In this document: positions 9,968-22,930 of the stretch, piece by piece
Layout of the letters: each line of letters opens with the position of its first letter
How positions within the stretch are numbered: position 1 is the first letter of the stretch
IMG/VR virus record: IMGVR_UViG_3300043331_000249
Coordinates: 1-25,133 of that record
DNA length: 25,133 bases
Reading direction: 5' to 3' (one strand)
DNA from: a virus
Translations under genes and position numbers: made by a program
Notes under the pieces: generated by a model
Database searches by the model: none
What the model was told of the DNA's origin: nothing
Seen by the model: the letters and a program-made list of their open reading frames with translations, nothing else

Positions 9968-10149
9968 CACAGCACCAGCCCGACCCGGGCCAAACCGCCG
10001 ACCTAACCGACGACGAGCTGGGAGAGGAGGACCGACGCCGGAGCGAGATCAGCATCGGCGAGCTATACCGCCGCGACCTGGCGGATCCCGCCACTCCCCC
10101 TCCTGATGCCGAGGTCGAGCTTCACCCGCCGGGTGTCGAGGGCGACTGA
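9964..10149 (+). CDS. Hypothetical acidic small protein
   Basis: ATG 9964 overlaps the upstream stop (ATGA), with GGAGGGGGGTGG as ribosome-binding site. The 61-residue product is acidic and predicted disordered (DLTDDELGEEDRRR, PATPPPDAEVELHPPG), without membrane segments or Cys. Its stop shares a base with the endolysin start. The coupling on both sides supports that it is translated. Nothing suggests a specific function. Confidence 0.5.
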   Translation: MTQHQPDPGQTADLTDDELGEEDRRRSEISIGELYRRDLADPATPPPDAEVELHPPGVEGD

Positions 10150-11405: not shown

Positions 11406-11588
11406 TCAGCGGCGGATCTCGACGGGCTGGTCGATCGGGAACCGGTCCTGGCCGCCGGTGGAGTAGGCAACCAGCATGTACTCGGTGTCGGTCGCGGAGT
11501 CGGTGTAGGCGAACGCAACTCGAACCTGCGCCAGACGACCGGAGGGGCGGCGGACCTTGTCGTTGTTGCGGATCTCGTTGGCCTGCAT
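11406..11588 (-). CDS. Small protein, paralogue of the 14964 gene
   Basis: The 60-residue product starts at the ATG at 11588 after GGAGGCGC. Its core, from EIRNNDKVRRPSGRLAQV to TGGQDRFPI, matches the 50-residue product at 14964-15116 at about 33 of 49 positions, with conserved RRPSG, VRVAF, EY.LVAY and GGQDRFP. It has eight more residues at the C-terminus. The predicted fold is an all-beta barrel-like unit; the function is unknown. It is expressed leftward from a consensus promoter at 11627-11655. The two copies face opposite directions, which suggests duplication with inversion. Confidence 0.8.
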   Translation of the reverse strand: MQANEIRNNDKVRRPSGRLAQVRVAFAYTDSATDTEYMLVAYSTGGQDRFPIDQPVEIRR

Positions 11589-12150: not shown

Positions 12151-12180
12151 ATTATACCATGCACTGCGTGTTGCTGTCAA
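12151..12180 (-). promoter_or_regulatory. Consensus promoter for the 11779 gene
   Basis: Leftward TTGACA (12175-12180), 18-base spacer, TATAAT (12151-12156), preceded by TGG. A GGGGG-UUC-CCCCC type stem of the upstream transcript (12181-12193) abuts the -35. Confidence 0.9.
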
Positions 12181-12223
12181 CCCCCGAAGGGGGCAGGCTG
12201 GTGGGGACGCAACTCCCCACCAG
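12181..12223 (-). terminator. Double hairpin at the end of the leftward RNA
   Basis: Stem 12198-12207/12214-12223 has 10 perfect pairs and a 6-base loop. Directly after it in the leftward sense, 12181-12193 forms a C5/G5 stem closed by a UUCG-like loop. There is no T tract. Confidence 0.5.
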
Positions 12224-12373
12224 AGGAGCCAGGAGCGCGGGAGGACGCCCGCGTTCGTCCGGATTGCCAACTCGCCCAGTGCGCCCTGAGCCTCACGGTC
12301 CAGTCCCGAGGTTGGCTCCTAACCGGTCCTGCATGCCTCCGTCTCCTGCCGGGTGGAGAGGGGACCTTCCGGT

Positions 12374-12414
12374 GGGACCGTGTTCCGGCGGCTAGCGCCT
12401 GGGGGGATTCCCCC
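12374..12414 (-). ncRNA. Conserved leader motif, leftward copy
   Basis: In the leftward sense it contains a G5-AAT-C6 hairpin, a GGCG/CGCC hairpin and the block GGAACACGGTCCC. The same order occurs in the rightward leader at 14265-14306, where the second stem is GGCT/AGCC: a compensatory change that supports a real RNA structure. Confidence 0.6.
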
Positions 12415-12440
12415 TTCCGGTCCCTCTCCCTTACAAACCC

Positions 12441-12469
12441 ATTGTATCACATCCCCCCCTCCGTGTCAA
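12441..12469 (-). promoter_or_regulatory. Promoter of the candidate leftward RNA
   Basis: Leftward TTGACA (12464-12469), 17-base spacer, TACAAT (12441-12446), preceded by TGA. A diverged copy of the upstream element (12479-12497) lies nine bases beyond the -35. Confidence 0.85.
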
Positions 12470-12478
12470 GTCCCCCCG

Positions 12479-12497
12479 TGTAACGAGCTGGTAACGG
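12479..12497 (-). promoter_or_regulatory. Diverged upstream promoter element
   Basis: In the leftward sense it reads CCGTTACCAGCTCGTTACA, 14 of 19 positions identical to the two rightward copies at 14187-14205 and 14861-14879, and has the same 9-base gap to the -35 as the first of them. Confidence 0.5.
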
Positions 12498-12507
12498 CCG
12501 AAGGGTG

Positions 12508-12535
12508 GGGGACGCCCCGTGCGGGCGACGTCCCC
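12508..12535 (-). terminator. Terminator-like hairpin after the 12548 gene
   Basis: GGGGACG at 12508-12514 pairs with CGTCCCC at 12529-12535, with further C/G pairing inside. It lies 12 bases past the stop of the leftward gene. Confidence 0.55.
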
Positions 12536-12547
12536 TCGGTCGGTCGG

Positions 12548-12775
12548 TCAGCCGGCTGAGCAGCCCCGGCGGTGTCCGCCGGTTGCGCACCCGCATGGCT
12601 GGGTCGCGTCGTTGCCTGCGAGGCTGACGCGGCCTCCGGAGTCGATCTTGTCGACGGCCTTCTGCACCCTCCCGGTGCATTCGTCGCAGCCGCCGCCAGA
12701 GCAGCTTGCGCAGCTTGGCTCGTTCTTGCCCCCCTGCGCCATGGCGACCAGGAGACCGAGCAGGATGGCGAGCAA
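12548..12775 (-). CDS. Small Cys-rich, membrane-anchored or secreted protein
   Basis: A TTG start at 12775 is chosen because GAGGAGGCGC precedes it by six bases and no ATG occurs earlier in the frame. The 75-residue product has a hydrophobic N-terminus (MLAILLGLLVAMA) that could be a membrane anchor or short signal, followed by seven Cys: C22, C25, C30, C33, C61, C63 and C72. The CxxC pairs around SCASC and CDEC suggest a zinc knuckle or disulfides. It has its own promoter at 12812-12841. No family is recognised. Confidence 0.65.
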   Translation of the reverse strand: MLAILLGLLVAMAQGGKNEPSCASCSGGGCDECTGRVQKAVDKIDSGGRVSLAGNDATQPCGCATGGHRRGCSAG

Positions 12776-12811
12776 AAGGCGCCTCCTCGTGGTGGGTGTT
12801 CGTACCTCCGT

Positions 12812-12841
12812 ATTTTACCACGCAACCCACCCTCGTGTCAA
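12812..12841 (-). promoter_or_regulatory. Promoter for the 12548 gene
   Basis: Leftward TTGACA (12836-12841), 18-base spacer, TAAAAT (12812-12817), preceded by TGG. It is divergent from the rightward promoter at 12878, with 36 bases between the two -35 boxes. Confidence 0.85.
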
Positions 12842-12877
12842 CCCCCAACCGCCCTCACGGCGCGTTCGGTCGGGGAC

Positions 12878-12906
12878 TTGACAGACGCTGCGCGTTGTGA
12901 TACAAT
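12878..12906 (+). promoter_or_regulatory. Promoter for the 12947 gene
   Basis: TTGACA (12878-12883), 17-base spacer, TACAAT (12901-12906), preceded by TGA. Confidence 0.88.
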
Positions 12907-12946
12907 GGGTTCAGACAGCGAGCAGACCAAGCGAGGAGGCACCTCA

Positions 12947-13873
12947 ATGGCTCGTCAGTTCCAGACCCAGACCGTCCCCGTCGAGACGCTCCGCCCCGGT
13001 GACTTCCGGCTGCGGGAGAACGGCAAGTACCGCCGCGTGCTGGTCGCCGAGCAGGACAGCGACCCCCGCACCATCCACGTCCGGTACCAGCCCAACGGCG
13101 CCGACCGCATCGCCCGTGGCACCGACGTCACCATCAAGCACCGCGACCCCAAGTGCCACTGCGGCTGCGGCTACCCCACCAAGGGCGGCCTCTGGTTCCC
13201 TGGGCACGATGGTCGGGTGGCTGGGCTCGGCGCCCGTGCGATCACCGGCGACATCGACGCACTGCGCAGCTTGGCCGCGATCGACCCCGTGACGCTCCCC
13301 ACAGGCGGCCCGGGACGGATCGAGCACAACCCGGACACGACCTGCGACGCGAGCTGCCAGTTCGCCCACCGTACGCTGTGCGTCTGCAACTGCGGCGGGA
13401 CCGGACACTACATGGGGTGGGTGCGGATCGGCCAGATGGCGCTCGCCCAGGTCCCCGAGGTCATGACGCCCGCCACGCAGCGCGCCTGGGCGACGTTCGT
13501 CTACGAGGAGGGTCGTAACCGCCCGGCGGCTGCGGTCCGTACCGGCCCGGTGGCCGAGTCCGTCCGGACCTACGACACCGAGCCGCGTCCGAACCTGGTC
13601 GCCCACGAGACGGTCCCGGCGCTGGGCATGGCCAGCGCGCAGATCGTGGAGTCGCCCAACTACGACGAGGAGGACCTGGATGCCTTCCTCCGCCGGGTGA
13701 TCCCGGTCCCCGCTGAGGCTGAGGTTCAGCACGGTGGCGAGTGCATCCTCGGTGGGCAGATGGCGCTGGACCAGCAGGGCAACCGGCAGCGGACCGTGGT
13801 CTGCGCCGAGTGCGGTCGGACGGTCGCGACCTACCCGACCGGCCGGATGTACAAGCACCAGCGTCCGGCGTGA
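12947..13873 (+). CDS. Zinc-finger-rich protein of unknown function
   Basis: ATG 12947 follows GAGGAGGCACC; the open frame extends far upstream but crosses the promoter, so that extension is rejected. The product has 308 residues. It shows Cys clusters at C70/C72/C74 followed by GLWFPGHDGR (81-90), at C133/C137, at C145/C147/C149 with GGTGH (H154), and C286/C289 (CAECGR). These look like at least two metal sites. The CxCxCG..PGHD and CVCNCGGTGH phrases recur, as far as I recall, in actinophage and plasmid proteins of unknown function. DNA or RNA binding is a guess. It forms a single-gene unit ending in a terminator at 13887. Confidence 0.75.
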   Translation: MARQFQTQTVPVETLRPGDFRLRENGKYRRVLVAEQDSDPRTIHVRYQPNGADRIARGTDVTIKHRDPKCHCGCGYPTKGGLWFPGHDGRVAGLGARAITGDIDALRSLAAIDPVTLPTGGPGRIEHNPDTTCDASCQFAHRTLCVCNCGGTGHYMGWVRIGQMALAQVPEVMTPATQRAWATFVYEEGRNRPAAAVRTGPVAESVRTYDTEPRPNLVAHETVPALGMASAQIVESPNYDEEDLDAFLRRVIPVPAEAEVQHGGECILGGQMALDQQGNRQRTVVCAECGRTVATYPTGRMYKHQRPA

Positions 13874-13886
13874 CTCCCCCTCCGAC

Positions 13887-13911
13887 AGCCCCCGGCTCAC
13901 CCCCGGGGGCT
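13887..13911 (+). terminator. Terminator after the 12947 gene
   Basis: AGCCCCCGG (13887-13895) pairs with CCGGGGGCT (13903-13911) around a 7-base loop, followed by TCGGCTTG. The same stem sequence recurs at 14511 and 15135. Confidence 0.8.
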
Positions 13912-13923
13912 TCGGCTTGCCCA

Positions 13924-13953
13924 TTGACAGCCCGCCTGTTGGTGTGGTAAAAT
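13924..13953 (+). promoter_or_regulatory. Promoter for the 13991 gene
   Basis: TTGACA (13924-13929), 18-base spacer, TAAAAT (13948-13953), preceded by TGG. Confidence 0.85.
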
Positions 13954-13990
13954 AGACCCAGGACCCGCCCCAACCAACCGGAGGCGCACG

Positions 13991-14185
13991 GTGGACACCA
14001 AGATCACACTGTACGAAGAGGACACCACGGACGAGCGGGGCGAGCCCCTCGGCACGTCCTGGCCGGACGAGCCGGACGCACTGGCCACCGAGCCCAGGTG
14101 GCTCAAGTGGCGCAGGGACCCCACCTGGCGCGATCAGGACAGCCAGGTCATCCTGGTCAAGGACCCCAGGTGGGACATGGTCTAG
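13991..14185 (+). CDS. Hypothetical acidic small protein
   Basis: GTG 13991 follows GGAGGCGCACG. The 64-residue product (MDTKITLYEEDTTDERGEPL, then PRWLKWRRDPTWRD and KDPRWDMV) is Asp-, Glu- and Trp-rich, soluble and without Cys. It has its own promoter. Expression with other mini-genes points to an early accessory role such as host takeover; this is inference only. Confidence 0.65.
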   Translation: MDTKITLYEEDTTDERGEPLGTSWPDEPDALATEPRWLKWRRDPTWRDQDSQVILVKDPRWDMV

Positions 14186-14186
14186 G

Positions 14187-14205
14187 CCGTTATCAGGCTG
14201 TAACA
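14187..14205 (+). promoter_or_regulatory. Upstream promoter element, copy 1
   Basis: CCGTTATCAGGCTGTAACA occurs here and, identically, at 14861-14879. It contains GTTA and TAAC as an interrupted palindrome and ends nine bases before a -35. Regulator binding is inferred. Confidence 0.6.
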
Positions 14206-14214
14206 TGACGGGAC

Positions 14215-14243
14215 TTGACGGTAACCTCCCGGTGTGATACAAT
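14215..14243 (+). promoter_or_regulatory. Promoter for the 14359 gene
   Basis: TTGACG (14215-14220), 17-base spacer, TACAAT (14238-14243), preceded by TGA. Confidence 0.85.
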
Positions 14244-14264
14244 GTGTTTATAGGGAAGAGGGAC

Positions 14265-14306
14265 GGGGGAAATCCCCCCAGGCTCCAGAAGCCGGAACAC
14301 GGTCCC
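14265..14306 (+). ncRNA. Conserved leader motif, rightward copy
   Basis: It has a G5-AAAT-C hairpin (14265-14279), a GGCT/AGCC hairpin (14281-14284 with 14290-14293) and GGAACACGGTCCC (14294-14306). It matches 12374-12414 on the other strand, with a covarying second stem. Confidence 0.6.
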
Positions 14307-14358
14307 CCCGCTCCTCCTCCCTCCGGCAGTCAGGAACCACCGCCAGGAGGCGCCCGAG

Positions 14359-14496
14359 ATGACCGACCGCGAGTACATGGCCCACTTCCGCACCGTCGTT
14401 GCTCCGTTCGCCACCTTCGCCGACGTTGAGCTGGACCGCCAGGCCGCCATCGAGGACATGGAATACGAGCGGCGCACCTTGGCACCTTGGCTCTGA
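14359..14496 (+). CDS. Hypothetical 45-residue protein
   Basis: ATG 14359 follows CAGGAGGCGCC with 8 bases of spacing. The product (MTDREYMAHFRTVVAPFATF, DVELDRQAAIEDM, EYERRTLAPWL) is short, helical and acidic, with no known family. It lies behind the leader motif 14265-14306 and ends just before a copy of the 11-mer repeat and a terminator. Confidence 0.65.
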   Translation: MTDREYMAHFRTVVAPFATFADVELDRQAAIEDMEYERRTLAPWL

Positions 14497-14510: not shown

Positions 14511-14535
14511 AGCCCCCGGCGGGATGCCGGGGGCT
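14511..14535 (+). terminator. Terminator after the 14359 gene
   Basis: AGCCCCCGGC (14511-14520) pairs with GCCGGGGGCT (14526-14535), loop of 5, then TCGCTTTG. Confidence 0.82.
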
Positions 14536-14547
14536 TCGCTTTGGGAC

Positions 14548-14860: not shown

Positions 14861-14879
14861 CCGTTATCAGGCTGTAACA
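14861..14879 (+). promoter_or_regulatory. Upstream promoter element, copy 2
   Basis: Identical over 19 bases to 14187-14205; it ends 19 bases before the -35 at 14899, ten bases further than in copy 1. Confidence 0.6.
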
Positions 14880-14898: not shown

Positions 14899-14928
14899 TT
14901 GACAACCGGGGTCGGGGCATGATACAAT
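14899..14928 (+). promoter_or_regulatory. Promoter for the 14964 gene
   Basis: TTGACA (14899-14904), 18-base spacer, TACAAT (14923-14928), preceded by TGA. Confidence 0.88.
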
Positions 14929-14963: not shown

Positions 14964-15116
14964 ATGACCGAGATCCGCGAAGGCCAGAAGATCCGCCGCC
15001 CCTCCGGCAAGCTCGCCACCGTCCGTGTCGCGTTCACCTACATCGACTCCGTGACCGGCATCGAGTACCTCCTCGTCGCATACCGCAACGGCGGCCAGGA
15101 CCGGTTCCCCGTCTGA
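14964..15116 (+). CDS. Small protein, paralogue of the 11406 gene
   Basis: ATG 14964 follows CAGGAGACAGG. The 50-residue product (MTEIREGQKIRRPSGKLATV, then VRVAFTYIDSVTGIEYLLVA and GGQDRFPV) is about two-thirds identical to the core of the leftward 11406-11588 product. It is probably a small beta-barrel. Function unknown. Keeping two copies under consensus promoters on opposite strands suggests a dose- or partner-dependent role, but this is conjecture. Confidence 0.78.
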   Translation: MTEIREGQKIRRPSGKLATVRVAFTYIDSVTGIEYLLVAYRNGGQDRFPV

Positions 15117-15134: not shown

Positions 15135-15158
15135 AGCCCCCGGGGGAGTCCGGGGGCT
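15135..15158 (+). terminator. Terminator after the 14964 gene
   Basis: AGCCCCCGG (15135-15143) pairs with CCGGGGGCT (15150-15158) around a 6-base loop, followed by TTGGCTTG. Confidence 0.8.
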
Positions 15159-15170
15159 TTGGCTTGTAGG

Positions 15171-20499: not shown

Positions 20500-20528
20500 T
20501 TGACACCGCCGGACCGGGATGGTATGAT
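20500..20528 (+). promoter_or_regulatory. Promoter for the 20643 gene
   Basis: TTGACA (20500-20505), 17-base spacer, TATGAT (20523-20528), preceded by TGG. Confidence 0.85.
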
Positions 20529-20546
20529 GGTGCTGGCCCTGGATCG

Positions 20547-20615
20547 TGGTCGCCCCCCACGTCGCCGTCAAAGACCAGGATAAGACGGCGACAGTGCGCG
20601 GGGTGAGACGCACCC
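20547..20615 (+). ncRNA. Structured leader with possible pseudoknot
   Basis: GTCGCCGTC (20561-20569) pairs with GACGGCGAC (20584-20592). GACCA in its loop (20573-20577) is complementary to TGGTC upstream (20547-20551). A second hairpin, GGGTG/CACCC (20601-20605 with 20611-20615), precedes the RBS. Confidence 0.45.
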
Positions 20616-20642
20616 TGTCAATGCCCTAGGAGGGGAAGCACG

Positions 20643-21098
20643 ATGGCCAAGCTGGACAGTGCGACGCAGGAGCAGGTCGAGGAGGCCGCTGCCTGGGGTG
20701 ACGAGCCGATCGGCAGGCTCCTGCCGGAAGGATGGTACGTCGCCAGCCTCATGGAGGTCAACGACCTCGGAGGCGAGACCGGACGGTGGGACTGGGTCTT
20801 CACCGCGCTCCGCGACTACGACATGAAGACGGGCGAGATCGGCTCGCCACGCGCCGGACGCGCCTGGTGGACCACCACCACCACCCCCGAGTCGATCGGC
20901 AAGCTCAAGTCGACGTTCGCCGCGTTCGACGCGACGGTCAACACCGACACCGACGAGCTGCTGGACGAGGAGATCCTGATCTACCTCGACCAGCACATCA
21001 GCAACAAGGGGAAGAAGAAGGGCGAGATGGTGAACGGCACGAGCGCGATCAAGGCGCTCCCCAACGCCACCGCCAGGACCGCCGGACCGCGCATCTAG
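20643..21098 (+). CDS. DUF669-like putative ssDNA-binding protein
   Basis: ATG 20643 follows AGGAGGGG. The 151-residue product (landmarks LLPEGWYVASLMEVND, TGRWDWVFTALRDYD, RAWWTTTTTPESIGKLKS, LDEEILIYLDQHISNKGKKK) follows the DUF669 pattern: a 'PeGwY.a' strand, an OB-like core, then a helix before a later strand with Asp/Glu and Lys-rich loop. DUF669 proteins often accompany phage recombinases and nucleases, so ssDNA binding is plausible. The neighbours support this. A weaker alternative is an unrelated OB-fold protein. Confidence 0.6.
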   Translation: MAKLDSATQEQVEEAAAWGDEPIGRLLPEGWYVASLMEVNDLGGETGRWDWVFTALRDYDMKTGEIGSPRAGRAWWTTTTTPESIGKLKSTFAAFDATVNTDTDELLDEEILIYLDQHISNKGKKKGEMVNGTSAIKALPNATARTAGPRI

Positions 21099-22572: not shown

Positions 22573-22580
22573 AACGGGGT

Positions 22581-22603
22581 GGTCGGGGGACGGTCCCCCG
22601 ACC
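22581..22603 (+). promoter_or_regulatory. 5'-terminal leader hairpin
   Basis: GGTCGGGGGA (22581-22590) pairs with TCCCCCGACC (22594-22603). It starts eight bases after the -10 and abuts the RBS, so the mRNA would begin with a tight stem. Confidence 0.6.
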
Positions 22604-22618
22604 CGAGGAGGAGGCGCC

Positions 22619-22930
22619 GTGATCAAATCACTCGCCGTCGCAGCCGCCCTGGTTGCGACTCTCGGCACCGTCGCCGATTCATGCTCTCTGGATGGGGGGG
22701 GCGACCGCAGCACCGAACGGAAGTCGCCCCCCGTCTGCCCACCGGACTTCGACCTCCGGCGGATCAGCAACCGGGAGTTCGTCTGCACCGTCGACGGCAC
22801 ACCCAACATCCCCGTCTCGGCGCGGTGCCCGCGCGGATGGACCATCCGGTCCGTCTCGGAGCAGCGGATCCGACCCCCCGATCGGCGGGCATTCACCACC
22901 GCCGTGAGGTGGCGCTGCCTGGATCTCTAG
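22619..22930 (+). CDS. Exported Cys-rich protein with a duplicated motif
   Basis: GTG 22619 follows GAGGAGGAGGCGCC. The 103-residue product has an N-terminal signal-like segment (MIKSLAVAAALVATLGTVAD) followed by C22; the site VADSC is a poor lipobox. The mature part has C40, C56, C70 and C100 and two similar units spaced 30 residues apart: CPPDFDLRRIS at 40-50 and CPRGWTIRSVS at 70-80. Disulfides within or between units are likely. An envelope-located role, such as superinfection exclusion, is conceivable. No family is recognised. Confidence 0.65.
   Translation: MIKSLAVAAALVATLGTVADSCSLDGGGDRSTERKSPPVCPPDFDLRRISNREFVCTVDGTPNIPVSARCPRGWTIRSVSEQRIRPPDRRAFTTAVRWRCLDL

Follow-up and report, generated by a model that had tools for sequence, protein, structure and literature searches.

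Two divergent cassettes of an uncultivated phage share a promoter and a candidate functional leader RNA

The window analysed here spans an entire virus record (25,133 bases; IMG/VR record IMGVR_UViG_3300043331_000249), probably a fragment, in which a protein scan recognized tail genes, an amidase endolysin, a Cas4/RecB-like exonuclease and a Sak4-like protein. The 924 aa tail protein is at most ∼35 % identical to proteins of Streptomyces phages (e.g. phiSASD1, Dubu and Chymera) and up to 55 % identical to those of uncultivated viral contigs, and the exonuclease shares at most 36 % identity with those of Streptomyces, Microbacterium, Gordonia and Arthrobacter phages; we infer that the host is an actinobacterium. 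Between positions 10000 and 25133 we identified 19 sigma-70-like promoter sites, where 1.3 were expected. These mostly occur as one promoter per gene and in most cases carry a TG before the -10, such that nearly every gene in this region seems to possess its own near-consensus promoter. At several of the 19 sites a GGTT motif was additionally observed a few bases 5′ of the -35. Using a strict pattern, at least three such promoters were found in 0 of 84 relatives of this phage identified by their tail protein.

Two divergent, outward-facing cassettes are located at 12497–12346 (minus strand) and 14187–14329 (plus strand), each comprising an upstream element, a near-consensus sigma-70 promoter and a predicted leader RNA (Table 1). 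The inverted pairs and the alignment agree in placing them where a first-pass annotation of this DNA had reported them. The shared leader described in that annotation is likewise present, but reaches farther than had been noted, to a CGGCAG motif at 12346 (minus) and 14329 (plus). Three features had not been reported previously: a third upstream element, a pairing between the outer ends of the leader and a pair of inverted paralogous genes. As the third element sits before a promoter that has no such leader, the upstream element and the leader are separable.

Table 1. Position and strand of the features in and around the two cassettes
Feature	Position	Strand	Remarks
Inverted pair 1	12370–12414/14266–14310		45 nt, 87 %
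Inverted pair 2	12417–12451/14233–14267		35 nt, 86 %
Inverted pair 3	12465–12499/14185–14219		35 nt, 77 %
Upstream element, left copy	12480–12497	−	CCGTTACCAGCTCGTTAC
Upstream element, right copy	14187–14204	+	CCGTTATCAGGCTGTAAC
Third upstream element	14861–14878	+	Before promoter 14899–14928, which lacks such a leader
Left promoter	12441–12469	−	TTGACA-17-TACAAT, TG before -10
Right promoter	14215–14243	+	TTGACG-17-TACAAT, TG before -10
Left leader RNA (predicted)	12346–12432	−	87 nt, predicted start to CGGCAG; alignment, folds
Right leader RNA (predicted)	14251–14329	+	79 nt, up to CGGCAG; alignment, folds
Left core	12374–12424	−	GGGACCG/hairpin 1/A/hairpin 2/GGAACA/CGGTCCC; fold
Right core	14260–14306	+	GGGAC/hairpin 1/A/hairpin 2/GGAACACG/GTCCC; fold
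13-codon frame after left leader	12293–12334	−	MQDRLGANLGTGP; probably not a real gene
Two strong GC hairpins	12180–12223	−	No U-run, just before next promoter; sequence, fold
45 aa ORF behind right leader	14359–14496	+	
10 bp GC hairpin after 45 aa frame	14511–14535	+	Terminator-like, no U-run; fold, repeat family
60 aa protein, left paralogue	11406–11588	−	
50 aa protein, right paralogue	14964–15116	+	68 % identical to left paralogue

The genes downstream of the two cassettes differ, as had been claimed. On the right there is a 45 aa frame, for which no protein family was found, whilst on the left there is no convincing gene: among the frames following the leader, only the 13-codon one has a plausible ribosome site. 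The two GC hairpins on the left are a possible end for that transcript. The hairpin behind the 45 aa frame belongs to a set of repeated, terminator-like AGCCCCCGG...GGGGGCT hairpins without U-runs that follow genes at 13887–13917, 14511–14541 and 15135–15165, with a start-to-start spacing of 624 both times. The paralogous small genes flank the cassettes on the outside, in the same inverted arrangement, and have no relative in the collections searched. The 308 aa protein encoded between the cassettes (12947–13873, plus strand) contains several cysteine/histidine clusters and is possibly zinc-binding; no family scored above the cut-off. An attenuator with a classical terminator was rejected, as the cassette region holds no U-run terminator; an inversion switch of the segment between the copies was also rejected, as the repeats look too imperfect for site-specific switching and the cassettes would face outwards either way.

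Local alignment of the two cassettes gave a score of 103, against a mean of 19.5 and a maximum of 31 in 1000 dinucleotide shuffles. Conservation in this pairwise alignment, from which all identities between the cassettes were taken, is markedly uneven. Identical positions make up 66 of the 76 aligned columns of the leader, 16/22 of the upstream element, 9/9 around the -35 and 12/12 at the extended -10, and only 2/13 in the first part of the promoter spacer; downstream of the leader the copies do not align better than shuffled sequences. At fourfold sites of the flanking paralogous genes, 11/21 positions are identical. The leader is thus more conserved than the spacer (Fisher p=6e-7) and the fourfold sites (p=0.0014), both tests presupposing that the pieces were duplicated jointly and being open to recombination between the copies, which could mimic constraint. 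On the strength of these differences, selection seems to have preserved the leader beyond mere copying, which points to an RNA element with a function, one that was genuinely duplicated and of which no further copy has so far been found. To this extent the uneven conservation, together with the lack of anything alignable downstream, upholds the proposal that this is a functional leader RNA and not just a copied gene; the structure attached to that proposal is less certain than stated, in that the complete right leader prefers an outer helix.

We consider it improbable that the segment is held simply as DNA, be it as an operator or another protein-binding site near the start, or that it was recently homogenized by recombination between the copies, with no function as RNA. 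All of the evidence is DNA sequence, GGGACCG/CGGTCCC is also an inverted repeat at the DNA level, a single pair of copies is compatible with gene conversion, and covariation is nil. A conversion tract would, however, have to include the -35 and the -10 and yet skip the spacer between them.

The first-pass annotation had further described a covarying hairpin. Whilst the change from GGCG/CGCC to GGCT/AGCC in the second stem is correctly observed, it is one single changed pair; a two-sided change in 1 of 10 pairs was reached by 256 of 500 shuffles, and by simple count 4/9 of random double changes of a G–C pair still pair. With only two sequences no claim of covariation is possible, and we rejected it as evidence. 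Retention of the structure is only suggestive (p about 0.07–0.08): with the observed changes placed at random, a fold as stable as the real other copy arose in 7–8 % of trials.

In the folds of both cores (z -2.6 and -1.5) an outer stem encloses two hairpins separated by a single base. At -40.5 and -35.2 kcal/mol (z -1.9 and -1.6), the complete leaders fold only modestly better than dinucleotide shuffles, of which 10/200 and 11/200 matched their stability. In the complete left leader hairpin 1 is kept inside a long outer helix, whereas in the right one a longer outer helix takes up the G-run and the G-run/C-run hairpin 1 is lost; the two adjacent stem-loops are a feature of the core folds, from which the complete right leader departs. 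The segments that hairpin 2 shares with the outer stem may alternatively pair as a small CCG-GAACA-CGG hairpin, which makes the predicted fold provisional. Against mononucleotide shuffles both leader starts are structured (z -3.4 and -2.9), with ribosome sites at +87 and +95, whilst most other promoters in the window have a ribosome site within 12–26 nt and a start without marked structure. Structured starts were also seen at two more promoters, 20500 and 22543. The former precedes a different long, strongly folded leader (20500–20640; z -2.2, ribosome site at +93) before a 151 aa gene at 20643; at the latter a 10 bp hairpin (GGTCGGGGGA/TCCCCCGACC, 22573–22610) lies between the promoter and the ribosome site of the gene at 22619.

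The two leaders might serve as a protective 5′-terminal structure, the folded beginning shielding the transcript from 5′-end-dependent decay and leaving the polymerase unaffected. Consistent with this, the structure starts at about +3 in both copies, the outer helix encloses each leader in full, and the arrangement is gene-independent; for protection alone, though, the sequence of the hairpin would be free to change, yet GCCGGAACACGGTCCC and TCCCCCCAGGC are identical in the two copies, and the phage's other genes mostly do without such a structure. We regard this explanation as somewhat unlikely. A protein- or ligand-binding regulatory leader, acting as an attenuator or translational switch, is in our judgement unlikely. 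For it speak the pyrimidine arm of the right copy (CTCCTCCTCCCTCC), for which the 5′ arm and the ribosome site of the 45 aa frame are alternative pairing partners and which partly moves onto that site when the 5′ arm is removed in silico, the conserved sequence of predicted single-stranded segments, and the upstream element, which suggests co-regulation; the left copy, however, keeps the leader though it has no convincing gene to control, and Rfam returned no known riboswitch.

Indeed, a search of Rfam, riboswitches included, gave nothing above the gathering threshold and only sub-threshold matches, mostly to microRNA models. No relative of the leader was found among phage records by DNA search, nor by protein-led searches using the endolysin, the 308 aa protein and the 50/60 aa paralogues. 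Viral contigs were searched with three leader patterns and one element pattern (exact and gapped), and on inspection no match had an adjoining hairpin and promoter; the same was true for one leader pattern in bacterial genomes, among the matches listed. The leader was present in none of 80 relatives found via the tail protein, and the covariance-model search that had been proposed as a check yielded no further copy among the 84 structural (tail-protein) relatives, the model giving the two copies 78 and 70 bits and no other site more than 23. These collections may omit records very close to this one. One weak match of the model, at L037:23407-23468 in Streptomyces phage Chymera (19.2 bits, where the true copies score 70–78), has several pairs broken and no obvious promoter and was treated as chance, and model matches of 15–23 bits in loci selected by pattern are expected from the selection itself.

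As the same leader precedes both the 45 aa frame and a region with no convincing gene, it is unlikely to serve solely for controlling a specific gene, which leaves a role in acting on the polymerase or the transcript itself; in the most likely reading it functions in cis, whatever gene lies behind it. One might instead see the left transcript, and perhaps both, as an independent RNA, either a trans-acting regulator or one for replication. There is no convincing protein-coding frame on the left, the two hairpins could end an RNA of ∼250 nt, and RNA-based origins are known in mycobacterial phages (PMC7157519). Nevertheless, the right copy leads into a normal-looking gene, and the known phage origin RNA adjoins parABS, whilst neither parA nor parB was recognized among the proteins scanned (part of the frames); we deem this reading improbable, too.

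We tentatively favour, at a probability well short of even, a read-through function, in which two sigma-70 promoters start structured leaders that act in cis so that a modified polymerase reads on. Each of the two divergent promoters would launch a transcript with the same leader RNA, whose structure would begin some three bases downstream of the predicted start. Once folded, the leader, unaided or together with a protein of the phage or the host, would modify the transcribing RNA polymerase independently of the following gene, and this polymerase would read through the GC hairpins within ∼300 bases downstream on both sides, in the manner of the put elements of HK022 or the nut elements of lambda. 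Four points are predictions from the DNA: that these promoters are transcribed, the precise fold, action in cis and read-through. Read-through was ranked first because of the putL/putR-like layout and because GC hairpins follow on either transcript, with transcript protection second. The hairpins downstream are devoid of U-runs and the genes beyond them are served by promoters of their own, so that read-through could be dispensed with. Also against it are the nil covariation support, the lack of any leader relative in our searches, the modest z values of the complete folds against dinucleotide shuffles, the only suggestive structure retention and the preference of the right copy for a fold without hairpin 1. 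That the leaders represent a factor-independent, put-like family of antiterminator RNAs, serving both divergent operons of an actinobacterial-type phage and unlike the lambdoid ones in sequence, seems to us quite doubtful. If the leader does act on polymerase, it would provide an RNA-based way to alter transcription in a phage group for which we know of none, and could be carried as a short part into GC-rich hosts; should it only protect RNA, it would be a useful but ordinary stabilizer.

Lambda-type nut sites are leader elements on two divergent early transcripts. The elements described here also lie on two divergent transcripts, although we identified no boxA/boxB or N-like protein. In cluster A mycobacteriophages an RNA-based origin has been described, with a non-coding RNA immediately upstream of parA (PMC7157519); the likeness is that of a non-coding RNA in an actinobacterial phage, whilst here there is a pair, and no par genes were recognized among the proteins scanned (part of the frames). 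The put sites of HK022 are two similar RNAs of ∼70 nt, putL and putR, with two stem-loops each, behind two early promoters (PMC9378689); put RNA confers anti-pausing and anti-termination and binds the zinc-binding domain of beta′. The present phage differs in being of the Streptomyces-phage kind rather than lambdoid, in that the leader ends also pair and so close the element, and in that both leaders stand at the very start, whereas ∼270 nt separate putR from its start. In layout, however, the two systems are alike: two similar RNAs of ∼70–80 nt, each behind a phage promoter (predicted here), with paired stem-loops (here in the core folds) and with folding that, as in putL, starts at about +3 in both leaders.
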